This document shows, in pieces, positions 3,432-35,174 of a DNA stretch of 42,267 nucleotides. Each line of letters begins with the position of its first letter. Within the stretch, counting starts at the first letter, position 1. Source of the stretch: Ruminococcus sp. (GTDB taxonomy: Bacteria > Bacillota > Clostridia > Oscillospirales > Ruminococcaceae); contig JAAVHJ010000010.1 in the NCBI GenBank assembly GCA_014799805.1, positions 221,054-263,320 on the forward strand, in the 5' to 3' direction. Under the pieces are notes generated by a model. It had not been told where the DNA came from, searched no databases, and was given only the letters and a program-made list of their open reading frames with translations. The position numbers were made by a program, and so were the translations under genes.

Positions 3432-4123
3432 TTTATTTTGTCGAAGATGATAACAGCATTCGTGAGTTAATTACTTATACGCTGAATAGTGCCAATATGC
3501 AAATTAAAAGCTTTGAAAAGCCGTCTTTGTTCTGGTCAGCTCTTGAAAAACAAATTCCAGATTTAATTTTATTAGATATTATGCTTCCTGAAGAAGATGG
3601 TTTGTCTATTTTAAAAAAATTAAGATTAAATTTTCATACAAAAAAAATTCCCGTGATGATGCTGACTGCAAAAGGCAATGAATATGAAAAAGTTATCGGC
3701 TTAGATGCTGGAGCTGATGATTATTTGCCAAAGCCTTTCGGCATGATGGAATTAATTGCCAGAGTCCGTGCATTACTCAGAAGAACACAAAATCCTGAAT
3801 CAAAACAAGATTATTATTTAGGCATATTATATGTCAATCCTGAAAAGCATATTGTACAAGTCAATCAGAAAAATATTAATTTAACACTGAAAGAATTTGA
3901 AATGCTTTGTTTTTTATTAAAAAATAAAGATATTGTCCTGACCAGAGAACAATTTTTAAATACTGTCTGGGGCTATCATTTTGACGGCGAAAATCGGACA
4001 GTTGATGTGCATATCAGAACATTGCGTCAAAAATTAGGCAAAGCAGGGTGTTATATTAAAACTATCAGAGGCATTGGCTATAAAATTCAGGAAAATTCTG
4101 GAGAATTTCCTGATGAGAACTGA
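3428..4123 (+). CDS. OmpR/PhoB-family response regulator
   Basis: Cytoplasmic two-component regulator of 231 aa. The receiver domain has the acidic pair ED-D at residues 6-8, phosphoacceptor Asp50 in LLDIMLPEEDG, the conserved Thr in MMLTAKG and Lys in YLPKPFG. A C-terminal winged helix follows (LTLKEFEMLCFLL through RTVDVHIRTLRQKLG and IRGIGYKI). The ATG overlaps the stop of cca and has an AAGGAG SD. It overlaps the downstream histidine kinase gene by 11 bp, which makes the kinase the likely partner. The family resemblance is PhoP/WalR-like, but target genes cannot be read from the sequence. Confidence 0.92.
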   Translation: MIYFVEDDNSIRELITYTLNSANMQIKSFEKPSLFWSALEKQIPDLILLDIMLPEEDGLSILKKLRLNFHTKKIPVMMLTAKGNEYEKVIGLDAGADDYLPKPFGMMELIARVRALLRRTQNPESKQDYYLGILYVNPEKHIVQVNQKNINLTLKEFEMLCFLLKNKDIVLTREQFLNTVWGYHFDGENRTVDVHIRTLRQKLGKAGCYIKTIRGIGYKIQENSGEFPDEN

Positions 4124-5462
4124 ATTAACAAAGCGGATTTTTATTGCTTGCATGATTGTTTTTTTAATGAGTTTCGGACTGGTTTTATATATGCTAAATT
4201 CTTATCTTGCAAAAAGAAATCTTGCTGAATTACAAGATAAAGCTTTGTATATTTCTTCTATGATTGAACAGAACAGCTGGGATTTTCTGAAAAATATGCA
4301 AAATACCAGCAATACCAGAACGACTATTATTGCATTAGATGGAACGGTATTATTTGACAGCATGTTTCCGTTAGAACAACTTGAAAATCATAGCAATAGA
4401 ATAGAATTTCAAGAGGCTTTGCAATATGGTTCTGGCAGTTCAGAACGCTATTCAGAGTCTTTGCTGAAAAAAACAGCGAATTATGCCTTATGTCTTGAAG
4501 ATAATTATATTATCCGTGTTTCTATGAATCAGGATAGTATCTGGGTATTATTCATTCAAATGCTAAGTCCCATGTTGGCAATTATATTTAGCATGATGAT
4601 TTTATCTATCTTGCTTGCTTTTTCCAGTACGAAAAAAATTATGTTGCCAATTAATAAATTAGACCCTGAAAATCCTGATGATAGAAATATTTATGACGAA
4701 ATGAAGCCTTTTGTCAGAAAATTAATTGTCCAGAATCAGCAGATTTATCATCAAATGGAACAGCTCCAGAATGAACATAAAAAACAAGATGCTATCAGAA
4801 GAGAGTTTACAGCAAATGTTTCTCATGAATTAAAAACGCCTTTGACTTCTATTTCTGGATTTGCTGAAATTATTCGTGATGGCTATGTACAGGAAAAAGA
4901 TATTTCGCATTTTGCTGATAATATTTACAAAGAAACGCAAAGAATGATTTCTCTTGTCAATGATATTTTAAAATTATCTAAACTGGAAGACGGAAATATT
5001 AATATTTATGAACGTGAATCTGTAAATTTATTAGAATTATGCCAGAATATTCAGGAACGGCTTGCTTTGCACGCTGAAAAAAAACAAATTGCTATTTCTT
5101 GTGAGGGTGAAACTATTTTTATCATTGGCATTCCTATTATGCTTGATGAAATTATTTATAATATCTGTGATAATGCAATTAAATATAATTTTTCTGGCGG
5201 TTATGTCAAAATTCTTGTGAAAAAACAAGATACACATGCCGTGATAGAAATTTCTGATAATGGCATTGGGATTCCTGAAAAAGACCAGGAACGTGTTTTT
5301 GAAAGATTTTACCGTGTTAATAAAAGTCATTCCAAAGAAGTTGGTGGTACTGGTTTAGGGCTGTCTATTGTCAAGCATGGCATGGCATTACATCATGCAA
5401 AAATTATTCTTGAAAGTCAAGAAAATAAAGGCACTTGTATGAAATTATATTTTCCTGTCTGA
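4113..5462 (+). CDS. Membrane sensor histidine kinase (PhoR/ResE-like)
   Basis: Partner kinase of the preceding regulator, about 449 aa from this ATG. Transmembrane helix 1 is at residues 8-30, an extracytoplasmic sensing segment of about 110 residues follows, and helix 2 is near 144-172. The HisKA dimerisation domain carries the phosphorylated His238 in NVSHELKTPLTS. The ATPase domain has the N box (IIYNICDNAIKYN), G1 (DNGIGIPEKD), F box (ERFYRVNKSHS) and G2 (GTGLGLSIVKHG). The start was chosen for the GGAGA SD inside the regulator's 3' end. No obvious PAS domain is visible. The stimulus is unknown; a phosphate or envelope-stress role would be inference from the family. Confidence 0.92.
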   Translation: MRTELTKRIFIACMIVFLMSFGLVLYMLNSYLAKRNLAELQDKALYISSMIEQNSWDFLKNMQNTSNTRTTIIALDGTVLFDSMFPLEQLENHSNRIEFQEALQYGSGSSERYSESLLKKTANYALCLEDNYIIRVSMNQDSIWVLFIQMLSPMLAIIFSMMILSILLAFSSTKKIMLPINKLDPENPDDRNIYDEMKPFVRKLIVQNQQIYHQMEQLQNEHKKQDAIRREFTANVSHELKTPLTSISGFAEIIRDGYVQEKDISHFADNIYKETQRMISLVNDILKLSKLEDGNINIYERESVNLLELCQNIQERLALHAEKKQIAISCEGETIFIIGIPIMLDEIIYNICDNAIKYNFSGGYVKILVKKQDTHAVIEISDNGIGIPEKDQERVFERFYRVNKSHSKEVGGTGLGLSIVKHGMALHHAKIILESQENKGTCMKLYFPV

Positions 5463-8782: not shown

Positions 8783-10087
8783 GTGGAGAAGTTTGTAATC
8801 AACGGCGGACATCCGCTGAAAGGAGAAATCTTGGTTAGCGGTGCGAAAAATTCCGCAGTGGCTATTCTTCCTGCAACACTGTTACTGGATGTTCCTTGTA
8901 TTATTGAAAATGTGCCAGATATTAGCGATGTGGAAATTTGTCTGAAAATTCTAAAAGGTCTGGGTGCAGAAGTAAAGCCTTTGAATCAACAGGGTGATAC
9001 TTATTGGATTTCTTGTCGGAATGTTTCTGATTTTTATGTTCCGTACAAAGAAGCTAAAAAAATGCGGGCATCTTATTATTTCTTGGGTGCTTTACTTGGA
9101 AGATGTGGCAATGCAAGAGCCGCTATGCCTGGGGGGTGTTCTCTTGGTGCAAGACCGATTGACCAGCATTTAAAAGCATTTGAAATTTTAGGAGCAAAGC
9201 AATTAATTGAAGACCAGCAGTCTGATATTGTAGAACTGCATGCTGAATCTCTCAGAGGCGGTAATATTAGCATGGACGTTGTTTCCGTTGGAGCAACTAT
9301 GAATGCAATTTTAGCCGCTGTCAAAGCTCCAGGGATTACTATTATTGAAAATGCGGCAAAAGAACCGCATGTCGTCGATTTAGCTAATTTTCTGAATTAT
9401 ATGGGTGCGAATATCAAGGGTGCTGGCACAGATGTGATAAAAATTGAAGGTGTGAAAAAATTAATGGGCAATGCTGGTGAAGGTTCTACTGTGGACTATC
9501 GCTATTCTATTGTTCCTGACCAGATTGAAGCTGGTACTTTTATGGTTGCCGCTGCTGCGACAAAAGGTGATGTGATTATTAAAGGCGTGATTCCTAAGCA
9601 TTTAGAAGCCATTACTGCGAAATTAATTGATTGTGGCGTGAATGTAGAAGAATTAGATAATATGGACGCAATACGGGTATCTGTAGAAAATAAAAAAATA
9701 TTTTGTCCAACGAATATTAAAACAGAGCCTTACCCTGGTTTTCCAACAGATATGCAACCGCAAATGGCAACACTCCTAACAATTGCAAATGGTGAAAGCA
9801 GTATCATGGAAAATGTCTGGGAAGACAGATTCCGTTATGTGCATGAACTTCGCAAAATGGGTGCGGAAATTAATATCACGCAAAATGGAGCAGTTGTTCG
9901 TGGTGGTGATTTGTTAACAGGTGCTTGTGTGAATGCCTGTGATTTAAGAGCAGGTGCGGCAATGATTATTGCTGGACTTATGGCAAACGGCTGTACAGAA
10001 ATTACTGAAATTCAGCATATTGAACGTGGTTATGCAGATATTGCCAAGAAACTCCGTGGAATTGGTGCGGATATTGTGAAAATATAA
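8783..10087 (+). CDS. murA: UDP-N-acetylglucosamine 1-carboxyvinyltransferase
   Basis: First committed step of peptidoglycan synthesis: transfers enolpyruvate from PEP to UDP-GlcNAc. The start was set at GTG because it follows a strong GAGGAGAG SD and opens the classic N-terminus VEKFVINGGHPLKGEI. The catalytic loop has the active-site Cys in GGCSLGARPIDQH, the fosfomycin target. PGFPTDMQPQ, VWEDRFRYVHEL and DLRAGAAMIIAGLMANG are typical. Length is 434 aa. ATGs further upstream lie within the cyclophilin gene and add non-homologous residues. A strong terminator follows. Confidence 0.96.
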   Translation: MEKFVINGGHPLKGEILVSGAKNSAVAILPATLLLDVPCIIENVPDISDVEICLKILKGLGAEVKPLNQQGDTYWISCRNVSDFYVPYKEAKKMRASYYFLGALLGRCGNARAAMPGGCSLGARPIDQHLKAFEILGAKQLIEDQQSDIVELHAESLRGGNISMDVVSVGATMNAILAAVKAPGITIIENAAKEPHVVDLANFLNYMGANIKGAGTDVIKIEGVKKLMGNAGEGSTVDYRYSIVPDQIEAGTFMVAAAATKGDVIIKGVIPKHLEAITAKLIDCGVNVEELDNMDAIRVSVENKKIFCPTNIKTEPYPGFPTDMQPQMATLLTIANGESSIMENVWEDRFRYVHELRKMGAEINITQNGAVVRGGDLLTGACVNACDLRAGAAMIIAGLMANGCTEITEIQHIERGYADIAKKLRGIGADIVKI

Positions 10088-24205: not shown

Positions 24206-25487
24206 CTTTCACTGTCTTTTTATGTTTCGGTTTTTTTACTAACAAAACAATTAATGCAATTGCTAAAATAATCGCAATGCCTCCTACTGTTGCAAGTAAA
24301 ATTCTTAAAAACTGATTATTTTTTACTTCTGGTCCTAAAATATCTGTAATATTTGTTTCTGCAATTTCTGCTGGGACATCTTCTTCATTTTCATAATTTT
24401 CATCTGACTGCGAATCCGTTTCAATTTCTATATTTCCTGCATTATCCTGCTGGTCTTCTGTGGCAATTTCTTGTGGTTCGTCTGCATTGTTAATTTCAAT
24501 AAATGTAAAATCATTTTTATAATCATTTTCTGCATCTTCTTCTGTGCAATATGTCTGTGCCGCTGTTCCTGCTTCGCCATAAATTACAAAATCATTAATT
24601 TGATTCAGGTCTGCATTATAACCAAATGCACAATAGTCAATTTCATTCACAGAAGATGGAATTGTTACACTATGCATACTTGTTCCCGAAAATGCATATT
24701 GTCCGACATAAGTAAGTGTATTTGGCAAAGTAATTTGTTCTAAAGCCGAACAATTACTAAATGTCGCATCATAAATTGTCTCTACACCAGCTTGTAATTC
24801 AATATCATGTAATTTTTCACAATAAGCAAATGCATAATCATCAAGTTGCATACTGGCTATTACTACTTTTTCAAGATTAGAATAGGCAAAAGCCCACATG
24901 TCAATATAATTCACATGACTTGGAATTGTAATTTGTTTTAAATTCTGGGCAAAGCCAAAACAACCCTGTGCAATTTCATCTACAGTATCAGGAATCTGAT
25001 AACTTTCGCCTGCTTTATTCGCTGGATAGGCAACTAAAAATTGATTATTATCTGCAAATAATACACCATCTGTCACAGTAAAATAACTACTTCCAGATTC
25101 TACAGAAATTTTTTCAAGACTAGTACAGCCGAAAAAAACACTATTTCCCATATCTGTAACAGAGGCAGGAATTGTAATGCTTGTAATACCTTTTGCATTC
25201 ATAAAGGCGGCATTTCCGATATAGCCAACAGGACAACCATCTAATTCTGATGGAATAATTAATTCGCCCTCATAAGTGTCAGATGGTTTAAAATCATAAA
25301 TTTCAGCACGTCCTGCTGTATTAATACTAAACGTGTATAAATCTTCTACACGTGATTCTGCTTGTGCAGATTCCTGCGATTCTTCAGGAACTGATGTATT
25401 TTCTTCTGCATATGCAGGAATAGATAGACATAGTGGAGCTGTCGCCATAAGCATGGCAACAGCAACAGCTAAAAATTTTTTCTTCAT
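24183..25487 (-). CDS. BspA-like LRR membrane protein (first of operon)
   Basis: A 434-aa protein and the most divergent of the four. Signal peptide ending near IPAYAEE, a Glu/Ser-rich linker, LRR_5 repeats (IGNAAFMNAKGITSITIPASV and others), the DGVLFADNNQFLVAYP insert, then a long acidic low-complexity stalk, a transmembrane helix (ILLATVGGIAIILAIALIVLLV) and a Lys-then-Asp/Glu tail. The ATG is 13 bases after glmS and its AAGGAT SD overlaps the glmS stop, so it is co-transcribed with glmS. Confidence 0.85.
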   Translation of the reverse strand: MKKKFLAVAVAMLMATAPLCLSIPAYAEENTSVPEESQESAQAESRVEDLYTFSINTAGRAEIYDFKPSDTYEGELIIPSELDGCPVGYIGNAAFMNAKGITSITIPASVTDMGNSVFFGCTSLEKISVESGSSYFTVTDGVLFADNNQFLVAYPANKAGESYQIPDTVDEIAQGCFGFAQNLKQITIPSHVNYIDMWAFAYSNLEKVVIASMQLDDYAFAYCEKLHDIELQAGVETIYDATFSNCSALEQITLPNTLTYVGQYAFSGTSMHSVTIPSSVNEIDYCAFGYNADLNQINDFVIYGEAGTAAQTYCTEEDAENDYKNDFTFIEINNADEPQEIATEDQQDNAGNIEIETDSQSDENYENEEDVPAEIAETNITDILGPEVKNNQFLRILLATVGGIAIILAIALIVLLVKKPKHKKTVKDDEDEEE

Positions 25488-25500
25488 AAATTATTTATCC

Positions 25501-27330
25501 TTATTCTACAGTAACAGATTTTGCAAGATTTCTAGGCTTATCAACATCTGTGCCTTTGTGAACTGCTGTATAATATGCAATTAACTGCAATGGTACAACA
25601 GCTAGCATTGGCATTAATAAATCATCATAATCTGGCAAGCCAAATTTGAAATCTGCAATGTCCTGTTCAGGCGTATCATCTTCACGGCATACTAAAACTA
25701 CTTTTGCCCCTCTTGCTTTGACTTCTTTGATATTACTGATAGTTTTATCAAATAATTTTTTCTGTGTCGCAATGGCAATCACTGGCATATTTTCTGTTAC
25801 TAAAGAAATTGTCCCATGTTTTAATTCGCCTGCGGCATAAGATTCTGAGTGAATATAGGAAATTTCTTTTAATTTCAGAGAACCCTCCATGCTTAAAGCG
25901 TAATCCAAACCACGACCAATATATAACAAACTATCTGCTGTAATTAATTCAGAGGCAATTAATTGTGTCATTTCTTTATGATTTAAAATTTCTTCAATTT
26001 TTTCTGGTGTTTCTTGCAATAATTTTGTCAAGCGACGGCATTCTTCTTCATCAATTGCATGATTGGCAAGTGCTAATTCAAATGCAAATAAATACATCAC
26101 AGCAATTTGTACCATATAGGCTTTTGTAGAAGCAACTGCAATTTCTGGTCCTGCATGTGTATAAATTAACATATCTGCTTCTCTTGCAATAGAACTGCCC
26201 TTTGCATTAACAATCGCAAGTGTTTTTGCACCTAATTGTTTTGCAAGTCTTAAAGCTGCTAAACTATCAGCTGTTTCACCCGATTGTGAAATAATAATCA
26301 CTAAATCATTTTTGCTGACCAATGGTTCTCTATATCTGAATTCAGATGCAATATCAACATTGACTGGAATTCTTGCTAATTTTTCAATCACATATTTGCC
26401 AACTGTTCCTGCATGCATAGCTGTTCCGCAAGCGACTACGTGAATTTTATGAAATTCCATAAGTTTTTCTGGGGTAATGCCACATTCTTCCAAATTTGGC
26501 AAACCGTCTGTAATTCTGGGCGTAATGGTTGTTTTAATGGCTGTTGGCTGTTCATGAATTTCTTTTAGCATATAATGTTCATAGCCACATTTTTCTGCTG
26601 CACTAACGTCCCAGTCCGCAGTTTTTAATTCTTTCTGAATCTTCTGATAATGCAAATTATATACTTTTACTTGTTTTTTGCTTAGTACCGCAATTTCATC
26701 ATGTTCAAGCAAATAATAATTTTTCGTATATTGCAAAATTGCTGTCATATCAGAAGCGATAAAATTTTCATTTTCGCCGATGCCAATAATTAAAGGGCTT
26801 TCTTTTCGTAAAGCATAGACTTTATCAGGGAAATCTGCAAATACGACACCTAATGCATAAGACCCCTCTAATTCCTGCATAGTTCTAATAATAGCGTCAA
26901 TAGGGTTTCCATGATTTTCCTGATAATAATAATCCAGCAATTGTGCAACAACTTCTGTATCTGTATCAGATTCAAAAATTCTGCCTTGTGATAATAAAAA
27001 TTCTTTCAGACGCTTATAGTTTTCAATAATACCATTATGAACAAGTGTGACATTTCCTCCACCATGTGGATGAGAGTTTTTATCTGATGGTTCCCCATGG
27101 GTTGCCCATCTGGTATGACCAATGCCAGCATGTCCAGTTGGCTTTCCCTCTTGGGCAATTTTATTTTGCAAATCTGTCAATCTGCCTTTGGACTTAGCAA
27201 CTTTGATAACTTCATTTTCAAATACAGCAATTCCAGATGAGTCATAGCCTCTGTACTCTAATTTAGACAAGCCGTCTATTAACACATCTGTTGCGTCACG
27301 CCACCCAACATAGCCTACAATTCCACACAT
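25501..27330 (-). CDS. glmS: Glutamine-fructose-6-phosphate aminotransferase (isomerising)
   Basis: Makes glucosamine-6-phosphate, the entry to amino-sugar and peptidoglycan synthesis. The start is the ATG directly before CGIVGYVG, so that Cys becomes the N-terminal nucleophile after Met removal; an ATG 21 bases upstream is in frame but would block this. The Ntn glutaminase domain (GHTRWATHG, HPHGGGNVTLVHNG) is followed by two SIS sugar-isomerase domains (ACGTAMHAG, SQSGETADSLAA, GRGLDYALSMEGSLKLKEISYIHSES) and the ending DVDKPRNLAKSVTVE. Length is 609 aa. The leader is short, with no room for a glmS ribozyme. Confidence 0.96.
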   Translation of the reverse strand: MCGIVGYVGWRDATDVLIDGLSKLEYRGYDSSGIAVFENEVIKVAKSKGRLTDLQNKIAQEGKPTGHAGIGHTRWATHGEPSDKNSHPHGGGNVTLVHNGIIENYKRLKEFLLSQGRIFESDTDTEVVAQLLDYYYQENHGNPIDAIIRTMQELEGSYALGVVFADFPDKVYALRKESPLIIGIGENENFIASDMTAILQYTKNYYLLEHDEIAVLSKKQVKVYNLHYQKIQKELKTADWDVSAAEKCGYEHYMLKEIHEQPTAIKTTITPRITDGLPNLEECGITPEKLMEFHKIHVVACGTAMHAGTVGKYVIEKLARIPVNVDIASEFRYREPLVSKNDLVIIISQSGETADSLAALRLAKQLGAKTLAIVNAKGSSIAREADMLIYTHAGPEIAVASTKAYMVQIAVMYLFAFELALANHAIDEEECRRLTKLLQETPEKIEEILNHKEMTQLIASELITADSLLYIGRGLDYALSMEGSLKLKEISYIHSESYAAGELKHGTISLVTENMPVIAIATQKKLFDKTISNIKEVKARGAKVVLVCREDDTPEQDIADFKFGLPDYDDLLMPMLAVVPLQLIAYYTAVHKGTDVDKPRNLAKSVTVE

Positions 27331-27372
27331 AATTAAAAATTCTCCTCTCAAGTATTTTATGCAAGTAATACT

Positions 27373-27401
27373 ATTATAGCATATTCTGAAAAAAAATGCA
27401 A
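27373..27401 (-). promoter_or_regulatory. Promoter of the glmS-LRR operon
   Basis: On the minus strand, TTGCAT and TATAAT with a 17-bp spacer. The predicted leader is about 35-40 nt. Confidence 0.75.
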
Positions 27402-27480
27402 CTAGTTTCTAATTCTTTTCATGAAATTTACACCTGTATATCATAATCTATAAGCAACAAAAACTTGAAAAATAAATAAT

Positions 27481-27518
27481 CCCCTCTTTTCTTTTAAAGA
27501 GGGGGATTTTTTTTTAGT
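27481..27518. terminator. Terminator at the 3' end of the XRE gene
   Basis: CCCCTCTTT/AAAGAGGGG stem with a 6-7 base loop. The plus-strand tail is ATTTTTTTTT; the minus-strand tail is ATTATTTATTTTT. It overlaps the last codons of the minus-strand regulator gene and probably ends its transcript. Confidence 0.7.
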
Positions 27519-27823
27519 TTTTCAAGTACAAAATCCATGACCTCGACTTTTTCAGTAAAGCTTAGTTTATCGAAAACTGTTAAAAACTCTTGTTTAAGAG
27601 TATCTTCTTGATTTTCACTAGTACAAAAATTAGGATTTTTAGTTCTTCCTAAAATGTAATCAGCCGATACTCCGAAATAATCAGAAATTTTTTTCAGATA
27701 GTTTGAATTAATATTGCCTTTTTTCCATGTGGACAGATTACCTCTGCTTCCTGTAATTTTAAGGCATAAAGCAGTAATTGAAATTCCTTTTAATTCACAA
27801 AGTTTTTTTAATCTTTCATACAT
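27494..27823 (-). CDS. XRE-family HTH regulator next to mini-CRISPR A
   Basis: A 109-aa Cro/C1-type regulator: helix-turn-helix in the first 60 residues (ISITALCLKITGSRGNLSTWKKG, then LKKISDYFGVSADYILGRT) and a short helical C-terminus (LSFTEKVEVMDFVLEKLKK), probably for dimerisation. The ATG was preferred to an upstream in-frame GTG because the GTG lies in the AGAGGTG SD. It is divergent from mini-CRISPR A and their -35 elements overlap (TTGACA on +, TTGTCA on -). The intergenic region has AAAAATTAG...CTAATTTTT operator-like repeats. It probably represses itself and the array RNA; this is inference from layout. Confidence 0.85.
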   Translation of the reverse strand: MYERLKKLCELKGISITALCLKITGSRGNLSTWKKGNINSNYLKKISDYFGVSADYILGRTKNPNFCTSENQEDTLKQEFLTVFDKLSFTEKVEVMDFVLEKLKKNPPL

Positions 27824-27865
27824 AATTATCACCTCTTTTAATCAAAATGTACAAAAATATATTTT

Positions 27866-27930
27866 AAAAATTAGCTAATACACTAATTTTTATAAAAAAT
27901 AGCTTTTTCTCTTGACAAGTCCTAATTTTT
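27866..27930. promoter_or_regulatory. Operator-like repeats between XRE gene and mini-CRISPR A
   Basis: Inverted repeat AAAAATTAG (27866-27874) and CTAATTTTT (27883-27891), in the expected promoter region of the regulator, plus a third half-site CTAATTTTT (27922-27930) inside the 17-bp spacer of the array promoter. This suggests one protein controls both directions. Confidence 0.45.
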
Positions 27931-27940
27931 GTATTATAAT
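27912..27940 (+). promoter_or_regulatory. Promoter of mini-CRISPR A
   Basis: Perfect TTGACA and TATAAT with a 17-bp spacer, about 25 bases before the first repeat. No start codon with an SD follows, so it drives a non-coding RNA. Confidence 0.85.
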
Positions 27941-27964
27941 AAATATTGTAAGTTGACAGCAAGT

Positions 27965-28053
27965 CTTTTCCCCGCATGCGCAGGGGTGATCCTTGCACAA
28001 ATGCTGAATTCATAGAGATTGCTAACTTTTCCCCGCATGCGCGGGGGTGATCC
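27965..28053 (+). CRISPR. Mini-CRISPR A: two type I-E-like repeats, one 33-nt spacer
   Basis: Two 28-nt repeats (27965-27992 and 28026-28053) with 61-bp period, the hallmark of type I-E. They start CTTTTCCCCGC, end GGGGTGATCC, and the second contains a perfect CCCCGC/GCGGGG hairpin with ATGC loop. The first repeat has one change, A at 27982 for G, which breaks a stem pair. The spacer (27993-28025) begins TTGCACAAATGCTG. No cas genes lie in the window. Having only two repeats makes it a mini-array, not a typical immune array. Confidence 0.85.
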
Positions 28054-28085
28054 CCATAATTTTCTGTAGTTGACATCTCAAAAAA

Positions 28086-28118
28086 CCCCATCATAAAAAG
28101 ATGGGGAATTTTTTTTTT
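28086..28118 (+). terminator. Terminator of mini-CRISPR A RNA
   Basis: CCCCATC/GATGGGG stem with an ATAAAAA loop and a run of about ten T's. Confidence 0.85.
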
Positions 28119-28263
28119 ATGACATTGTAATTATTATAACATATCATAGGGCTTTTTGTCAACCGGCTTTTTTTAATTTTTGCAAACAATATCGTAAAAA
28201 TGCTAAATATTATTTGTTAAATTGCCTGTTACTTCGTCAAATTGTCATATTTTCAAGAATAAC

Positions 28264-28292
28264 TTGCAATTTTGAAAATTTTGTGCTATACT
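28264..28292 (+). promoter_or_regulatory. Promoter of bipA
   Basis: TTGCAA and TATACT with a 17-bp spacer, about 40 bases before the bipA start codon. Confidence 0.7.
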
Positions 28293-28330
28293 GAAAAAGC
28301 GAAATGATATTACGAAAGGATAGTAAATTT

Positions 28331-30151
28331 ATGATTAGAGAAGATTTAAGAAATGTCGCAATTATTGCCCATGTAGACCACGGCAAAACAACACTTGTTG
28401 ATGAAATGCTAAAACAAGGCGGTGTATTTCGTGAAAATCAAGCCGTTGCAGAACGTGTCATGGATTCTAACGAAATCGAGCGGGAACGTGGTATTACGAT
28501 TTTAGCGAAAAATACAGCTGTTCAATACGGTGATGTGAAAATTAATATTATTGATACACCAGGACATGCAGATTTTGGCGGAGAAGTAGAACGTGTATTA
28601 TCTATGGTTGATGGTGCAATTTTATTAGTTGACGCTGCCGAAGGTCCTATGCCACAAACTAGATTTGTATTATCAAAGGCTTTGGAAATGGGTCATAAAA
28701 TTATTATTGTTGTGAATAAAATTGACAGACCTGATGCCAGACTTGATGAAATCGCTGACGAAGTGCAATTATTATTATTAGATTTAGATGCCGATGATGA
28801 ACAATTAGAAAGTCCGATTTTATATTGTTCTGGCAGAAGTGGCACAGCGTCTTTTGATAAAGACACACAGGGCAAAGATTTAAAGCCTTTATTTGAAACG
28901 ATTTTAAATTATATTGCACCTCCAGAGGGCGAACCAGAAGAAGCTTTTCAAATGTTAGTATCTTCCATTGATTATAATGACTATGTCGGCAGGATTGCAG
29001 TTGGTAAAATTCAACGAGGTACTGTGAAAATTAATCAGCCTGTTGTGGTAGTTAATTCTAACTTGCCTGAAAAGCATAATCAAGCAAAAATAGTTTCTTT
29101 AGCACAAATGCAGGGGCTTGCACAAGTGAATACAGAAACTGCAACTGTTGGGGATATTGTAATTTTAAGTGGTATTCCAGATATTACGATTGGTGATACT
29201 ATCTGTTCCCCAGAAAAACCAGAAGCAATTCCATTTACACATATTAGTGAACCAACTGTTGAAATGACATTCTCTGTCAATGATAGTCCGTTTGCAGGAC
29301 GTGAGGGCAAGTATGTAACTTCCAGACAGCTCCGTGAAAGATTATTCAAAGAATTATTGCGTGATGTTTCACTTCGTGTAACTGAAACTGATAATACTGA
29401 TTCATTCAGTGTTGCAGGACGTGGTGAAATGCATTTGTCTATTTTAGTAGAAAATATGCGTCGTGAAGGCTATGAATTATCCGTCTCTACACCAAGAGTA
29501 TTATATAAAACTATCAATGGCAAACTCTGTGAACCGCAAGAACGACTTGTTGTTGATGTTCCCGAAGAATGCGTTGGAACAGTCATGGAAAAAATGGGGA
29601 CTCGTAAAGGGGAATTGCAATCTATGCAACCACAAGGCACTAGAACTAGATTAGAATTTTTAATTCCGTCAAGGGGATTATTTGGCTATAAAAGCGAATT
29701 CCTCACAAATACCAGAGGTGAAGGCATTATGAGCAGTGTTTTTGATAGTTATATTCCGTTTAAAGGCGATATTCCCAGGAGAAGTGTTGGTTCTCTGATT
29801 TGTCATGAATCTGGTGAAGCTGTCACTTATGGGCTTTATAATGCACAGGAAAGAGGGACTTTATTTATTGGTGCAGGTGTGCCTGTTTATGAAGGCATGG
29901 TTGTTGGTGTTTCTCCAAAATCTGATGATTTAGTTGTAAACGTTTGCAAAAGAAAGCATTTAACGAATACCAGAGCAAGTGGCAGTGATGACGCATTACG
30001 TTTAGTTCCGCCTAGAAACATGAGTTTAGAAGACTGTTTAGAATTTCTTGCTGATGATGAATTGCTGGAAGTGACACCTAAAAATTTGCGTATTCGCAAG
30101 CGAATTCTTGACAATGCACAACGTGCCAAAATGAGAGGAAAAAAAGCATGA
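28331..30151 (+). CDS. typA: Ribosome-associated GTPase BipA/TypA
   Basis: Translational GTPase that helps 50S assembly and stress or cold adaptation. G motifs: AHVDHGKTT (G1), [16 protein letters not shown] (G3), NKIDRPDAR (G4). Domain II and the EF-G-like domains follow, with the BipA-specific C-terminal domain ([43 protein letters not shown]). Length of 606 aa is standard. The ATG follows AAAGGA; an earlier in-frame ATG would add nine unlike residues. Its stop overlaps the next gene's ATG. Confidence 0.96.
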
Positions 30152-30867
30152 GAAAATTATTAATCATGATTGCATTATGTTCTGTAGGGTTTTGTGGTTG
30201 TCAGTCTGTGCCACAGGAAGATACAGGAGATATTCAGGCTGAAACACAAGAGAATCAGGAAATTCAGGAAACAATTAATTCAGAAGAATATCCAACTTCT
30301 AAGCCACCAGCAGAAACAATTGTGCCAAATGCATTAGATATTGATGCAGGTGCAACGCCTTTAGAACAATTTCAATATGAAATTCATACAGATGGAACAG
30401 CTGTTATTTTAGATTTTATTGGTTCTGATACAGAACTTGTGATTACTTCACAAATCGGCGGTTATCCTGTCACAGAAATTGCACAATATGCATTTGAAGC
30501 CTCTTGGAATGTAACTTCTATCACATTGCCTGATACGATAGAAATTATTAACGAACAGGCTTTTGCAGATTGTGAGAGTCTTACTAAAATTAATATTCCT
30601 GAACAAGTGAAATCTATCAAACGTGGTGCATTTTCTAATTGTATGAATTTAACAGAATTAACTTTGCCTGCTGGTCTTGCCGAAACACAAGAGGAAATGC
30701 TGACAAATTGTCTTGCTTTACAGGATTTATCTGTTTTAAATGCAAGTTTAAATTATAACAATTGGGGATTAGAAGATTTAGAAACTAAATGCACCATTCA
30801 TGCACCTGCTGGAGCTGAAATTTTAACATGGGCGGAAGAAAATGATTTCCCAATTGTAATAGAATAA
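30148..30867 (+). CDS. LRR (BspA-like) lipoprotein
   Basis: A 239-aa lipoprotein with signal peptide and lipobox ending in FCGC, a Glu/Gln-rich spacer (residues 25-60), and about three LRR_5 repeats (ITLPDTIEIINEQAFADCESLTKI and INIPEQVKSIKRGAFSNCMNLTEL). It ends in a HAPAGAEILTWAEEND motif that often closes BspA-type domains. It is translationally coupled to bipA by an ATGA overlap. It is related in fold to the four-gene LRR operon on the other strand, but anchored by lipid rather than a C-terminal helix. Confidence 0.8.
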   Translation: MRKLLIMIALCSVGFCGCQSVPQEDTGDIQAETQENQEIQETINSEEYPTSKPPAETIVPNALDIDAGATPLEQFQYEIHTDGTAVILDFIGSDTELVITSQIGGYPVTEIAQYAFEASWNVTSITLPDTIEIINEQAFADCESLTKINIPEQVKSIKRGAFSNCMNLTELTLPAGLAETQEEMLTNCLALQDLSVLNASLNYNNWGLEDLETKCTIHAPAGAEILTWAEENDFPIVIE

Positions 30868-30881
30868 TAATAATAATAATA

Positions 30882-30921
30882 TACCTCTGCTTATTTAAAG
30901 TTTAAATAACAGGGGTATTTT
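30882..30921 (+). terminator. Terminator after LRR lipoprotein gene
   Basis: Long stem: TACCTCTG and TTATTTAAA pairing with TTTAAATAA and CAGGGGTA (one G-U), followed by TTTTA. Confidence 0.75.
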
Positions 30922-31022
30922 ACATGGATTTAACATAACTATGCTATTATATTTTATATTATTCTGCTATGATGAAATTATTAAAATATTAGAAATTAAT
31001 TAAGAAAGAAGGAATGTATTTC

Positions 31023-31475
31023 ATGAATGTAGATATTTATGCGAAAGAAGAAATGCAGAAAATAATTGCAAATCAATTTCCTAAAAATACAGTTGTGATT
31101 AGTTTCTATGATAAGCGTAAATCTAAAAATTATAGCTATATTAATTATGATTCCGTTTGTCAAGATGTTTTTTATTGTGAAATTGACGATTTAGATTTAA
31201 AAGTATTAGAATATTACGGTTATACTTATGATACTTATTTCCCAGAAGCAGATAAATTAGCAGAATTTATTTATCATGCCTATCAGAATCATAAAAATAT
31301 CATTTGTCAATGCGATTACGGGCAAAGTCGCAGTGCTGGCTGTGCAAGTGCGATTTTAGAGCATTTTTATCATACAGGAATTTCTGTTTTTGCAGATTAC
31401 AGGCGTTCTCCTAATCAAGTTGTGTATCATAAAGTGTTTGATGCACTTGAAAAATATAAAAAAAATATTTCTTAA
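31023..31475 (+). CDS. Protein tyrosine/dual-specificity phosphatase-like protein
   Basis: A 150-aa protein with the Cx5R phosphatase loop CDYGQSR within IICQCDYGQSRSAGCASAI, which provides the nucleophilic Cys and phosphate-binding Arg. DDLDLKVLEYYGYTYDTYFPEADKLAEFIYHA is the usual helix before it. It resembles small predicted dual-specificity phosphatases of unknown substrate in Clostridia. The start was set at the second ATG; the first directly abuts AAGGA. It lies upstream of the Na/Pi gene, with a 29-base gap. Confidence 0.75.
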   Translation: MNVDIYAKEEMQKIIANQFPKNTVVISFYDKRKSKNYSYINYDSVCQDVFYCEIDDLDLKVLEYYGYTYDTYFPEADKLAEFIYHAYQNHKNIICQCDYGQSRSAGCASAILEHFYHTGISVFADYRRSPNQVVYHKVFDALEKYKKNIS

Positions 31476-31504
31476 TGTTAAATTTAGAAAGGCGGTTTTG
31501 ATTC

Positions 31505-33289
31505 ATGAGTGGTGCAAAGGAAATTGTGCTAGCAATTATTACTGTTATCGGAGGACTTGCATTTTTTCTATATGGCATGAATGTCATGTCTTCAGGCTTG
31601 GAAAAAATGGCTGGCGGTAAATTAGAACAGGCTCTGAAAAAATTAACTTCTAATACTTGGCTAAGTTTATTTTTAGGGACGTTTATTACAATCGTGTTGC
31701 AGTCTTCGTCATCTCTAACAGTTATGTTAGTAGGACTTGTCAATTGCGGTGTTATGGAAGTTAGTCAAACAGTTGTGATTATTATTGGTGCGAATATCGG
31801 CAAGACGTTTACAACATGGCTATTATGTCTCATGGGCGTTGATACATCAGGCTCTCTATGGCTGTCGTTATTAAATCCAGAATATTTTTCTTTGGTATTT
31901 GCCATGGTCGGAGCTGTGCTGATTATGATGTCGAAAAATGGAAGAAAAAAAGATATTGGTGCAATTTTAGTTGGATTTGCTGTCTTAATGTATGGCATGG
32001 TGCTGATGGGTGATGCGGTTGCTCCTCTCAAAGAATCAGAAGAATTTCAGCAAATGCTGACTAAATTTGAAAATCCTTTCTTAGGCGTTTTGGCTGGTAC
32101 TGTTGTAACTGGTGTCATTCAAAGTTCTGCGGCTTCGATTGGTATTTTACAGAGACTAGCAGACGCAACAGGGAATATCACTTTTGGCATGGCGATTCCG
32201 ATTATTATGGGGCAAAATATCGGGACTTGTGTCACGGCTGTGATTTCAAGCTTTGGTGTTACTAGAAATGCGAAAAAAGTAGGTGTGATTCATATTGCAT
32301 TTAATATTATTGGTACTGTGATTTTTCTGACGGTTTATGAGATTTTGGAAATGACAATCGGGTTCAGTTTTTCTAAATTGCCAATTACTTCCGTGGGTAT
32401 AGCAATTGTGCATACAGTTTTTAATATAGCAACTACTATACTATTGTTACCGTTTGCAAAATTGCTTGAAAAAATTGCAAATTGGGTACTGCCTGATAAA
32501 GATGACGAAAAAGAACCGCAGGAAGAGCATGCACTTTTGGACAAGCGTCTGCTGACAACACCTTCCGTTGCTATCGCAGAGTGTGACGAAGCGTCAAGAC
32601 GAATGGCGAAATTAGCAAAAGAAACCGTGCTTTTGAGTATTTCACTTTTGACAGAATACGACAAAAAGGTTGCCGAAAAGGTATCTAAAAATGAAAATAA
32701 ACTTGATAGCTATGAGGATCGAATTGGAACAACACTTGTACAACTCACATCACAAGCTTTATCAGAGCATGACAGTCAAGTTTCTTCTCGGGTTCTGCGA
32801 GCTATTGGCGATTTCGAGCGACTAGGAGACCATGCAATCAACCTATCAACAATTGCGAAACAAATTCATGATGAAAGAATCACATTTTCGGAACATGGCA
32901 CAAAAGAAATGGAAGTTTTAACGGAAGCTTTAGAAGATATTCTGGAGCGTGCGTATCGTGTCTATAAAACTGTTGATGAAGAACTAGCCACGCACATTGA
33001 ACCACTGGAGCAAGTGATTGATTATCTCACACGTGACATAAAAGCTAACCACGTAAAACGCTTGCAAAAAGGTTCTTGCACTATCGAAACAGGCTTTGTT
33101 TTGAGCGATATATTGACAAATTTCGAGAGAATTTCAGATCATTGCTCTAACATCGCTGTGTCTGTAATCGAAACTTCTCATAGCACTTTTGGAACGCATG
33201 AATACCTGAGCAAAATTAAGTTTGGCAATCAGAAATTTAATGATAATTTTGAGAAGTTTTCGCAACAATATAGCATTTCTAAAATATAA
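31505..33289 (+). CDS. Na/Pi cotransporter family protein with PhoU domain
   Basis: A 594-aa membrane protein. The N-terminal half has about eight helices with the two characteristic inverted motifs QSSSSLTVMLVGLVNCG and VIQSSAASIGILQRLA of the NptA/SLC34-type family. The C-terminal part (from about residue 350) is a PhoU-like helical bundle (RVLRAIGDFERLGDHAINL and ILTNFERISDHCSNIAV). It is predicted to import phosphate with sodium, or regulate phosphate signalling through the PhoU part. A c-di-AMP or nucleotide link reported for some homologues cannot be judged here. The SD is AGAAAGGCGG; a terminator follows. Confidence 0.9.
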   Translation: MSGAKEIVLAIITVIGGLAFFLYGMNVMSSGLEKMAGGKLEQALKKLTSNTWLSLFLGTFITIVLQSSSSLTVMLVGLVNCGVMEVSQTVVIIIGANIGKTFTTWLLCLMGVDTSGSLWLSLLNPEYFSLVFAMVGAVLIMMSKNGRKKDIGAILVGFAVLMYGMVLMGDAVAPLKESEEFQQMLTKFENPFLGVLAGTVVTGVIQSSAASIGILQRLADATGNITFGMAIPIIMGQNIGTCVTAVISSFGVTRNAKKVGVIHIAFNIIGTVIFLTVYEILEMTIGFSFSKLPITSVGIAIVHTVFNIATTILLLPFAKLLEKIANWVLPDKDDEKEPQEEHALLDKRLLTTPSVAIAECDEASRRMAKLAKETVLLSISLLTEYDKKVAEKVSKNENKLDSYEDRIGTTLVQLTSQALSEHDSQVSSRVLRAIGDFERLGDHAINLSTIAKQIHDERITFSEHGTKEMEVLTEALEDILERAYRVYKTVDEELATHIEPLEQVIDYLTRDIKANHVKRLQKGSCTIETGFVLSDILTNFERISDHCSNIAVSVIETSHSTFGTHEYLSKIKFGNQKFNDNFEKFSQQYSISKI

Positions 33290-33306
33290 CATAAAAAAGA
33301 AAAATC

Positions 33307-33340
33307 CCCGCTTTTTTGCAAGTGGGGGTTTAGTTTTTGT
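33307..33340. terminator. Shared terminator between Na/Pi gene and XRE gene B
   Basis: CCCCGCTT/AAGTGGGG stem with one G-U on the plus strand, then GTTTAGTTTTT. On the minus strand the same site overlaps the end of the XRE gene but has an A-C mismatch, so it is stronger for the Na/Pi gene. Confidence 0.7.
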
Positions 33341-33560
33341 GTGAGTTTGGGTTGTCGGTGCGACTTAGTAAGTAGTCAATGGAGCAATCGAGATAATCAG
33401 CGATTTTTTCAATAGTTGCCACAGAGGGTGTCCAGTCTCTTTTTTCAAGGTCATATATTAAGCTTTTCCTAATTTCACATTCTTTTAGCAGTCTTGAAAC
33501 AGGTAACTTTTTCTCCTTACATGTTTTTTTTATTATTATTGCAAGTTGTCCATTTTCCAT
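33330..33560 (-). CDS. XRE-family HTH regulator next to mini-CRISPR B
   Basis: A 76-aa Cro-like regulator made almost only of the HTH domain: LPVSRLLKECEIRKSLIYDLEKR, then SVATIEKIADYLDCSIDYLLSRTDNPNSH. The SD is AAAGGAG. It is divergent from mini-CRISPR B, in the same arrangement as XRE/mini-CRISPR A, but the protein is not a close copy of the other regulator. The intergenic region has an ATTTGT...ACAAAT inverted repeat and a related TTTGTG-ATATA segment overlapping the array -10. Repression of the array RNA is inferred from this layout. Confidence 0.85.
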   Translation of the reverse strand: MENGQLAIIIKKTCKEKKLPVSRLLKECEIRKSLIYDLEKRDWTPSVATIEKIADYLDCSIDYLLSRTDNPNSHKN

Positions 33561-33576
33561 AATAAAAACTCCTTTT

Positions 33577-33653
33577 ATTTGTGCATATATACAAATTTGC
33601 GAGATTTCACGTTATTTTTATTGACAAGCAGATTATTTTGTGATATACTTGTA
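33577..33653. promoter_or_regulatory. Operator-like sites between XRE gene and mini-CRISPR B
   Basis: Inverted repeat ATTTGT (33577-33582) / ACAAAT (33591-33596) with GCATATAT between, located just upstream of the regulator. A similar TTTTGTGATATACTTGTA lies over the array -10. This could let the XRE protein bind both promoters. Confidence 0.4.
33621..33649 (+). promoter_or_regulatory. Promoter of mini-CRISPR B
   Basis: TTGACA and TATACT with a 17-bp spacer, 28 bases before the first repeat, mirroring mini-CRISPR A. Confidence 0.8.
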
Positions 33654-33664
33654 CTTGTCAAGAG

Positions 33665-33813
33665 TTGACAGCAAGTCTTTTCCCCGCATGCGCGGGGGTG
33701 ATCCTCTACTAGCATTTTCGATATAGTAGTTTTTTTTCTTTTCCCCGCATGCGCGGGGGTGATCCTGCGCGGGGGTGATTGGATCCTGCTTGCTGTCAAG
33801 TACTTGCTGTCAA
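33665..33813 (+). repeat. Inverted motif flanking mini-CRISPR B
   Basis: TTGACAGCAAGT just before the first repeat (33665-33676) has two reverse-complement copies after the array: CTTGCTGTCAA at 33789-33799 and ACTTGCTGTCAA at 33802-33813. The transcript could fold so that the whole mini-array is a loop closed by a 12-bp stem. Mini-CRISPR A shares the upstream motif but not the inverted copies. Confidence 0.7.
33677..33779 (+). CRISPR. Mini-CRISPR B: two type I-E-like repeats, one 33-nt spacer, plus partial third repeat
   Basis: Repeats of 28 nt at 33677-33704 and 33738-33765, 61-bp period, identical to each other and to repeat 2 of mini-CRISPR A, with the intact CCCCGCATGCGCGGGG hairpin. 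Spacer 33705-33737 begins TCTACTAGCATTTTCG and ends in a run of T's. TGCGCGGGGGTGAT at 33766-33779 is a duplicated 3' part of the repeat. The 14 bases before the first repeat equal those of array A. No cas genes are in the window. Confidence 0.85.
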
Positions 33814-33888
33814 CTTTAGACACTATTACCTTTTAGTATACCATGATTTTTTTGAAAAGTCAAGATTTTTTCAGAAAGGAGCATTGCC

Positions 33889-34104
33889 ATGAACCAAGCC
33901 ATAGACATTCTATTTTCTAGCTGGTATGAGGCTCACTTTGATAATGATAAAGAAGCTAACTTGAAAGAGTATTTGACGGTTTATAATTCAGTTGACGCAA
34001 AAAGTTTAGAGTCCGTTTTCAAATGTATCGGAGTTGAGGCGAAATCATCTTTTCAGGCTGGCTTTAAAACAGCTGTACAGCTCCTACTAGAGAGTAAACT
34101 ATAA
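33889..34104 (+). CDS. Small phage-type protein (DUF6809-like) downstream of mini-CRISPR B
   Basis: A 71-aa, mostly helical protein. The C-terminal SFQAGFKTAVQLLLES recalls small phage or mobile-element proteins of the DUF6809 type (FxxGFxxGxxLLxE), but this is a resemblance only. The SD AAAGGAG is strong. There is no clear terminator between mini-CRISPR B and this gene, so the array may lie in its 5' leader. A terminator follows. The function is unknown. Confidence 0.55.
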   Translation: MNQAIDILFSSWYEAHFDNDKEANLKEYLTVYNSVDAKSLESVFKCIGVEAKSSFQAGFKTAVQLLLESKL

Positions 34105-34112
34105 AAAAAAAG

Positions 34113-34138
34113 TGTTCCTAAGGGAGCATTTTTTTTTG
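34113..34138 (+). terminator. Terminator after the small phage-type gene
   Basis: TGTTCC/GGAGCA stem with one G-U, loop TAAG, followed by about ten T's. Confidence 0.75.
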
Positions 34139-34145
34139 GAATCTG

Positions 34146-34174
34146 TTGCGGATTGTGAAAATATATGCTATAAT
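34146..34174 (+). promoter_or_regulatory. Promoter of the CPBP-SDR pair
   Basis: TTGCGG and TATAAT with a 17-bp spacer; the AAAGGAGG SD of the CPBP gene follows. Confidence 0.65.
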
Positions 34175-34196
34175 AAAAAAAAAGGAGGTTTTTTAT

Positions 34197-35174
34197 ATGA
34201 AGTTATACACGGATTATGCTTTGACAAAAACTGTTAAAAATGCAGAAAGATTTGTTACACCCAAAAATATGATTCTAAAAATTTTAATTTTTTTAGTTGT
34301 ATTTTATATCGGACAGATTGCCGAAAGCGTACCATTAATACTAGCAGTCATGCCGAGGCTTATGGCATGGGCAACGGAACAGATACAAATTACAGGTTCA
34401 CTTGATGAAACTGCATTGCAAGAAAAATTAACAAATTTATTAGCAGACCCTGCTAACACTAAAATTATGCTATATTGTACGATTTTTGCAACTTTGACTA
34501 CTTTGCTATTTTGCCGATTCATAGAGGGCAGAAAATTAGACACTTTGGGATTTCGCAAAAAACATGCCGTTTTGCATTATATTTCGGGCTTAGGTGTTGG
34601 ATTTTTGCTATTTAGTTTGGTTGTTTTACTATCACTTTGCATGGGTGGGATTACTTGGACTGGTTTGCAAAGCTTTTCGATTACTAGTATTTTAGTTATG
34701 CTGGGAGGGTGGCTTTTGCAAGGCATGAGCGAAGAAGTTATTTGTCGTGGCTATTTCATGACGACTATTTTAAGAAATTACAATCCAGTTTGGGCAGTTG
34801 TTGTAAATTCCGTCTTTTTTGGATTAATGCATGGCTTTAATAATGGCTTTTCTCTAGTGGCTTTTGTAAATTTAACATTATATGCGGTCATGATTTCGCT
34901 CTATGTTCTGAGGACAAATTCCCTATTTGGGGCATGTGCCATTCACAGCGTCTGGAATTTTGTACAAGGGAATTTCTATGGTTTGCCAGTCAGTGGCATT
35001 GATACGGGAGGAACAATTTTTTCTGTTTCTCTGGTAGAAAATGCGAATTTAGCAAATGGCGGAGATTTTGGACTGGAAGCAAGTCTGCCTTGTGCTATTG
35101 TCATGCTGATTGCAATTGCTGTATTATTATTTGTACCAATGAAATTTTTAGAGAATCAGGAGAAACAAGCATGA
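34197..35174 (+). CDS. CPBP-family intramembrane metalloprotease
   Basis: A 325-aa membrane protein with about seven helices. The Abi/CPBP motifs are complete: EEVICRGYF (EExxxR), FFGLMHGFNN (FxxxH) and CAIHSVWNF (HxxxN), the Glu and His being the predicted metal ligands. Such proteases process prenylated or peptide substrates, or protect against own bacteriocins; the target here is unknown. The ATG follows AAAGGAGG by eight bases. The gene overlaps the SDR gene by four bases (ATGA). Confidence 0.88.
   Translation: MKLYTDYALTKTVKNAERFVTPKNMILKILIFLVVFYIGQIAESVPLILAVMPRLMAWATEQIQITGSLDETALQEKLTNLLADPANTKIMLYCTIFATLTTLLFCRFIEGRKLDTLGFRKKHAVLHYISGLGVGFLLFSLVVLLSLCMGGITWTGLQSFSITSILVMLGGWLLQGMSEEVICRGYFMTTILRNYNPVWAVVVNSVFFGLMHGFNNGFSLVAFVNLTLYAVMISLYVLRTNSLFGACAIHSVWNFVQGNFYGLPVSGIDTGGTIFSVSLVENANLANGGDFGLEASLPCAIVMLIAIAVLLFVPMKFLENQEKQA

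Follow-up and report, generated by a model that had tools for sequence, protein, structure and literature searches.

Mini-CRISPR modules in Ruminococcus genomes and their spacers matching orthologs of flanking genes

Introduction

What are two very small CRISPR (clustered regularly interspaced short palindromic repeats) loci for, when each holds a single spacer beside a regulator gene? The question is raised by a stretch of 42,267 nucleotides from an uncultured Ruminococcus (assembly GCA_014799805.1, contig JAAVHJ010000010.1, positions 221,054 to 263,320 of the forward strand), which is called the window at this full length. The two mini-CRISPR loci, W1 and W2, lie 5.65 kb apart. A sequence-only reading of the window had suggested that they may be repressor-controlled guide-RNA genes rather than immune memory. 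CRISPR memory is usually interpreted as recording phages and plasmids, whereas the spacers of the loci compared here are mostly diverged versions of neighbouring genes.

W1 and W2 are members of a dispersed module family. Its members consist of a regulator gene, a promoter, a leader with inverted copies and one to four type I-E repeats, often with a small open reading frame (ORF). For W1 and W2 themselves, the anatomy alone was established; the evidence on spacer origin comes from the other members.

Spacers and flanking genes

Twenty mini-array spacers were analysed in four genomes. These are the genome of the window (G000, from an uncultured Ruminococcus clade, 88% complete; n = 5), CAMWHN01 (G027; n = 4) and CAMWUF01 (G031, 79% complete; n = 4), both uncultured Ruminococcus, and G033 (95% complete; n = 7). 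The compared relatives are incomplete metagenome-assembled genomes. The count excludes flanks behind terminal repeats, irregular gaps (the second gap of C10_186, a 46-nt gap of G033_C4 and a 38-nt gap of G033_C11p), and the contig-end array of G017 (best match 18/33). The C60 and C10_186 spacers were trimmed to 33 nt. Each spacer was compared with its own neighbourhood within 3 kb, with arrays masked, and 300 shuffles of the same spacer served as the null.

Fourteen of the twenty spacers match homologs of genes no more than 1.4 kb from their own array, at 23-32 of 33 nt, and the distance from spacer to matched gene is 280-1401 bp. Twelve of them reach 25-32/33 identities (0/300 shuffles each); the two others reach 23/33 (0/300 shuffles) and are backed by peptide comparison (0/200 shuffles). 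No other match of at least 25 was found outside the flanking genes in 133, 53, 20 and 63 kb of partly overlapping stretches of the four genomes. The matched genes encode a GH94 phosphorylase, an amidohydrolase, ribosomal protein S20, a DUF378-like protein, XRE, SecG, a histidine kinase, an S4-domain protein plus its neighbour, and one more ORF; these names were read from translations without a family search, except for XRE, which was seen as HTH_26 in the G000 copies. Among 102 control spacers from long arrays, the best match was 22/33 in the own neighbourhood, which none exceeded, and 23 against the mini-locus regions. A two-repeat array inside the cas operon of G005 was placed among the controls and not among the twenty; by eye, it is a single-spacer mini array between cas6e-like and cas1-like ORFs (L082 reverse, ~3865-3957).

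The differences between spacers and resident genes are largely silent. The 14 pairs have 72 in-frame mismatches in total, 48 of them at codon position 3, and 14 amino-acid changes were observed against 48 expected at random placement (0/2000 simulations). Because the mismatches are largely synonymous, each spacer encodes nearly the resident peptide, and hence derives from a diverged functional ortholog. The protospacer adjacent motif (PAM) A[AG]N is present in 11 of the 14 (background 0.171, P = 8e-7), as expected of true capture by Cas1-Cas2; the exceptions are G027_C109 and G031_C44, which share a protospacer window, and G033_C28c. For one spacer, G033_C11m2, a hybrid origin was considered and dropped, the alignment being plain orthologous variation.

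Spacer turnover among relatives

The genus sample for relatives comprised 38 genomes. The leader-plus-repeat pattern was found in three of them and the repeat at up to two mismatches in seven, G021 by one two-mismatch site only. At orthologous mini loci the spacers are different. The typA-side locus, W1 in the window, has a single spacer in G000 and lacks one in G031. Beside rpsT, the spacer counts are 0, 2 and 3 in G000, G027 and G031, respectively, and all of these spacers differ. At the GH94-side locus, the G000 spacer corresponds to GH94; those of G027 and G031 correspond to the amidohydrolase, the G031 one being inverted. The last two, G027_C109 (L058 3558-3590) and G031_C44 (L087 reverse, 2168-2200), represent the same 33-nt amidohydrolase window in opposite orientation with one base different. 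The sequence-only reading of fixed guides had named free variation of spacers between close strains as evidence against itself, and such variation is what the close relatives show. Since the spacers differ between orthologous loci, the arrays look adaptive.

Locality of spacers is present in two lineages that differ in their leaders. The G000 clade has the GTTGACAGCAAG type, and three of the four G033 arrays have a GGGGTAC type paired with an inverted GTACCCC. The G033 mini arrays (L088, L089, L090) were also seen to have a different small ORF family and no Cas7e match; they may be relics or users of another effector.

At the typA site, a module is present in 2 of 30 loci viewed, with two repeats in G000 and one repeat between inverted leader copies in G031. 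Loose repeat-like matches near typA in five other genomes proved on inspection not to be I-E repeats. The W1 site is empty in G027: window positions 24500-27447 and 28192-28260 align adjacently in its contig C21 (L221 8499, 8483), and the synteny spans the surroundings of glmS, typA and the transporter gene. In place of W2, G027 has two other small ORFs (L221 2189-2871), and small cargo seems to vary at this position.

Type I-E machinery

The sequence-only reading had raised the matter of type I-E cas genes elsewhere in the genome, and an operon of this type is indeed present. The genome holds 44 occurrences of the repeat core (up to three mismatches), including two long arrays of 11 and 23 repeats. 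The 11-repeat array (C29) sits behind an operon for Cas8e, Cas11e, Cas7e, Cas5e, Cas6e, Cas1e and Cas2e-DEDDh, and Cas3 domains were found in the ORF preceding these genes, the 5' end of which lies outside the analysed stretch. Among the 38 genomes, Cas7e was detected in G000, G005 and G027. In E. coli, the type I-E convention is a 29-nt repeat plus a 32-nt spacer. The mini loci have the hairpin-type I-E repeat of the cas-linked array, a 61-nt period and 32-nt spacers.

The leader of the mini loci is of a different kind. At up to one mismatch, AGTTGACAGCAAGT is absent at both long arrays and is not shared with the cas-linked array; genome-wide it occurs at W1, W2 (twice) and C72a, plus one unrelated site only. 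Many longer arrays with the same leader and no linked regulator had been named as a refutation of the guide-RNA proposal: two long arrays do exist, and that leader is missing from them. Four further mini loci of the genome are located at C10:186552, C60:28778, C72:7472 (C72a, with one repeat) and C72:11463 (C72b). In the long-array leaders (L032 ~9223-9345; L035 ~9350-9478), inspection by eye shows a degenerate repeat and, behind it, sequence similar to the 3' end of cas2; the leaders look as though a duplicated cas2 end had given rise to them. A phage origin of long array C76 was also considered and rejected; two records labelled as phage match it in many pieces, which were read as CRISPR repeats and not as protospacers.

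Possible source of the spacers

Several spacers fit sampled relatives better than the resident gene. The C72b spacer has 30/33 identities in G007, 28 in G027 and G031, and 26 in its own genome. The G027_C174a spacer reaches 28/33 in G000, G031 and G005 against 26 in the own gene, and G027_C109 reaches 33/33 in G000 against 32. The G027_C174b spacer encodes LKTM, which is found in all 20 readable loci outside the clade, whereas G000, G027 and G031 have LRTM (23 of 30 loci were read). The peptide of G033_C11p, KSHSKEVGGT, is that of G000 (window position 5321), whereas the own gene of G033 encodes ESRSKEVGGT. Such cases point to a donor outside the own clade. The 14 matched spacers appear to have been acquired from diverged orthologs of the neighbouring genes, and the donor DNA was probably that of relatives, from a species absent from the sampled genomes. 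A foreign origin is the better reading than an old allele of the own lineage.

One alternative would make the captures a functionless by-product. A weak match, such as that of a terminal guide to the own leader, would trigger primed or break-associated capture of nearby DNA, whether self or incoming; self-targeting captures would die out, and mainly mismatched ones would remain. Primed adaptation is reported to acquire spacers close to a protospacer that is already present (PMC6990116). The terminal guide of G031_C241 has 14 nt of the inverted leader at its start and matches its own leader behind AAG, which is one hint for priming. In G031_C17, G027_C174 and G033_C28, several spacers per array come from nearby sites. 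However, 12 of the 14 spacers differ from self at 4-9 in-frame positions, mostly silent; since this exceeds what escape needs, a diverged donor is still required. The long arrays of the same genomes also lack local captures, and the by-product explanation is considered rather doubtful.

Possible function

The function favoured for the mini-CRISPR family, with a probability of about one half, is protection of the locus from homologous DNA. The modules would borrow I-E Cas proteins, whose genes lie elsewhere in the genome. Homologous DNA entering from relatives would be both the source of spacers and the target: pieces near the module would be captured by the I-E proteins, mostly with a normal PAM, and the transcribed arrays would yield CRISPR RNAs (crRNAs), for which GUGAUCCN may be the expected handle. 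These crRNAs would lead Cascade-Cas3 to the versions of the flanking genes that relatives carry, and mismatches would let the resident alleles escape in most cases. If the relatives' alleles were attacked and the resident ones escaped, the module would not be overwritten by homologous recombination. In Haloferax, recombination is reported to be biased in favour of the strain whose CRISPR system does the targeting (PMC12814878). Priming, physical closeness during recombination, and selection are candidate sources of the locality. The XRE protein would presumably have a regulatory role in the module.

In E. coli type I-E systems, the seed comprises positions 1-5, 7 and 8, and these positions were used for scoring. 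The own copy has a seed mismatch to the spacer in 9 of the 14 pairs, a poor PAM only in 3, and both intact in 2. The result bears on natural CRISPR interference, in which mini-array guides would tune the resident flanking genes. The guides do correspond to flanking genes, and the two intact cases, C72b and G033_C11m1, keep PAM and seed to their own gene. In the other 12, however, the seed mismatch or poor PAM speaks against such tuning, by the E. coli seed positions. The targets also differ between orthologous loci, and one pair carries the same window inverted. Tuning of resident genes is therefore regarded as improbable.

Several observations weigh against defence of the locus and against a foreign donor. 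Six spacers have no local match: W1, W2, C10_186, C60, G027_C85 and G033_C28b. The two intact cases keep seed and PAM against their own gene. Cas7e was not found at E 1e-8 in G031 or G033, and some modules may have no Cas partner. Besides the one 33/33 case, which is 1 nt from self, no exact foreign donor was found. The DNA of G033_C11p is nearer to the own gene (29/33) than to G000 (27/33), for G031_C17c the best fit is within its own clade (28/33 in both G031 and G000), and the own gene of G027_C174b fits as well as any sampled relative (26/33); an old own-lineage allele would be the competing source. An intact seed was found in 0/29 sampled relatives per gene for the three rpsT spacers and in 3/29 for C72b; by this prediction, the sampled relatives too would mostly not be targeted. 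Locality was not seen in short arrays of other genera. The exact I-E-like repeat was found in 19 of 396 family genomes, with up to 10 places per genome considered, and seven stretches of six genomes with few such repeats, four of which reach a contig end close to the repeats, gave a best match of 21/33 (21 rows, including terminal flanks and one spurious repeat). Spacer locality looks like a feature of these modules and not of short I-E arrays generally.

The lack of local matches for W1 and W2, at both DNA and peptide level, would suit small conventional I-E arrays with phage spacers, unlike the loci with local spacers. However, the leader motif, XRE gene and promoter layout are common to W1, W2 and the rpsT- and GH94-side loci with local spacers, and 22-nt and 24-nt pieces of the W1 and W2 spacers have no exact match in IMG/VR. 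This explanation is thus considered highly improbable. Pieces of the C72b and G031_C17c spacers likewise have no exact viral match. Two candidate sources were rejected: the match of the W1 spacer to glmS (21/33) is at chance level (41/300 shuffles), and although the W2 spacer reaches 24/33 against the XRE gene at loci in two relatives, its peptides do not match its own neighbourhood, and a shuffle of W2 also reached 24.

A further variant is put forward tentatively. The modules may be allele-specific chromosomal CRISPR elements, whose guides would cut or block relatives' flanking alleles. In a cell with both versions, the module would then resist replacement and may spread by co-conversion from its flanks, like a homing element using host Cas. 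If the mini arrays act on homologous DNA, CRISPR would be a local barrier to, or a driver of, homologous gene exchange between gut species.

Guides and own promoters

Another explanation is a guard of the CreTA/CrePA kind, in which a guide with Cascade would repress the promoter of the small ORF, as a toxin, and loss or inhibition of Cascade would release it. One or two ectopic repeats beside a small ORF and a regulator, together with I-E Cas7e in two of the genomes (G000 and G027), are consistent with it, as is the 14-nt own-leader match of G031_C241 described above. The first spacer of C10:186552 was also seen to begin with 9 nt present in its own promoter region (TAATACTGT; L031 reverse, ~2350-2485), a possible CreA-like match. 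The only other match of at least 9 nt, that of G033_C11m, falls inside the downstream secG gene. Over 37 guides, however, no general seed match to the own promoter was found (mean 5.6 nt, against 5.2 nt at loci of other genomes). The spacers turn over, the small ORF is only a putative toxin, and W1 has no such ORF. A guard is therefore considered unlikely.

Two matches spotted by hand gave no rule in the systematic test and were dropped: that of the terminal AATTTTGAT to a -10 region, where the preceding GTA does not fit A[AG]N, and that of TGCACAAAT in W1 to the 5' region of XRE2. The proposal of repressor-controlled guides in place of immune memory is thus borne out in part. The XRE-linked modules are repeated and unlike the long arrays, and a link to host genes exists; on the other side, the spacers turn over and no CreA-type rule was found. 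What many spacers match is orthologs of flanking genes, with the own copy seed-mismatched or poor in PAM in 12 of 14.

Relationship to known systems

The closest likeness is to the mini-CRISPRs of the Sulfolobales viruses SPV1 and SPV2. As described by Medvedeva et al. (PMC6858448), these target a related virus close to the arrays, the own copies being mutated or deleted, and the authors call the origin of this proximity unclear. They resemble the present loci in having one or two spacers, host-type repeats and no cas genes, a near-array target in a close relative, altered own orthologous copies, and different spacers at the same position. An orthologous region near the array with a mismatched own copy was found for 14 of the 20 family spacers, but not for W1 and W2. 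Unlike SPV1 and SPV2, the present loci belong to the chromosome of a bacterium, where housekeeping genes surround them; their repeats are of type I-E, and they come with an XRE gene and inverted leader copies. They do not appear virus-borne: the window is syntenic with G027, and no viral contig of IMG/VR contains the exact leader-repeat pattern (0 matches). Should the arrays act on homologous DNA, the proximity in viral mini-CRISPRs gains a testable explanation, and the homing or allele-exclusion variant, if true, would explain it too.

In CreTA and CrePA (PMC12737573), ectopic repeat units likewise borrow Cascade, with a small ORF beside a regulator. The present modules differ in the absence of a general guide match to the own promoter and in spacers that turn over and match flanking genes. 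Solitary repeat units and RNA anti-CRISPRs (PMC10651486) are similar to the W1 ortholog of G031, which is a single repeat in a strong hairpin; the loci here are chromosomal, and their exact pattern is missing from the viral contigs.

Spacers against chromosomal genes of related species reportedly were also seen in inter-species mating work on Haloferax, and such archaeal spacers are said to sit in ordinary arrays. Here, by contrast, dispersed mini arrays lie beside the homologous resident gene. Archaeal spacers against chromosomal genes of other organisms, and thus a comparable origin in related species, are described by Brodt et al. (PMC3285040). A full-text literature search, which left subscription papers mostly outside, returned no description of mini arrays on chromosomes whose spacers stem from orthologs of flanking genes.

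Anatomy of the two window loci

The layout of two loci given by the sequence-only reading was confirmed, and every part of it is present. Both first repeats are preceded by the identical leader AGTTGACAGCAAGT, at 27951 and 33663. At up to two mismatches the motif has 7 matches in the window (shuffles: mean 0.37, 0/100 reaching 7). The four I-E-like repeats, with motif matches at 27970, 28031, 33682 and 33743, have a 61-nt period (chance mean 0.00) and enclose a single spacer per locus. Divergent promoter-like sites with 17-nt spacing are present at both, and each locus has a minus-strand XRE/HTH_26 gene. The two regulators are 28% identical and so are not near copies; that of W1 is 48-49% identical to the regulators of two other mini loci of the same genome. 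Newly found were the inverted leader copies of W2, reverse promoter-like sites at both arrays and a 71-amino-acid ORF at W2. In Rfam, nothing reaches the gathering score in 27000-34500.

The W1 module (27448..28191) corresponds to ~744 bp extra relative to the empty site of G027 in the synteny alignment. Its regulator gene (27494..27826, minus strand; Pfam HTH_26, E = 1.8e-6) is followed on the plus strand by the promoter-like site into the array (27912..27940; TTGACA-17-TATAAT, consensus score 12/12), the leader motif (27951..27964), repeat 1 (27965..27992, one base off consensus), the spacer (27993..28025), repeat 2 (28026..28053) and a terminator-like site (28086..28117). The first base of the spacer is repeat position 29, and no local or viral source was found for it. 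A reverse promoter-like site (28133..28162, minus strand; TTGACA-18-TATAAT, 12/12) faces through the array towards the XRE gene. The longest forward ORF between array and typA has 26 amino acids, and none like that of W2 was found. The W1 ortholog of G031 ends in ATGAACCATAATTTTCTGTAG behind a ribosome-site-like stretch, which is read as a decayed ORF.

In W2, the regulator gene (33330..33560, minus strand; HTH_26, E = 7.2e-8) is followed on the plus strand by the promoter-like site (33621..33649; TTGACA-17-TATACT, 11/12), the leader motif (33663..33676), repeat 1 (33677..33704), the spacer (33705..33737), and repeat 2 (33738..33765) with a half repeat at ~33766-33785. The spacer is hairpin-like with a T run, and no source of it was found. 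Two inverted leader copies (33788..33815, minus strand), one with two mismatches and one exact, precede a reverse promoter-like site (33835..33863, minus strand; TTGACT-17-TATACT, 10/12). This stretch recurs between array and small ORF at C72a of G000, C174 of G027 and C17 of G031. RNA of modules that have inverted leader copies gives a better fold than its shuffled versions (C72a unit, z = -4.8; G031_C241, -7.2; W2, -4.7), whereas the W1 RNA does not (z = -0.9).

The 71-amino-acid ORF of W2 (33889..34104, plus strand) is homologous to ORFs of other mini loci. No family was found above the cut-off, and there is weak sub-threshold similarity to DUF6809. DUF6809-like small ORFs without a CRISPR repeat within 3 kb were also seen at L047, L064-L069, L074, L078 and L080, and several of them adjoin small regulators that resemble ribbon-helix-helix proteins by eye; this suggests that the CRISPR repeats joined an older two-gene module.

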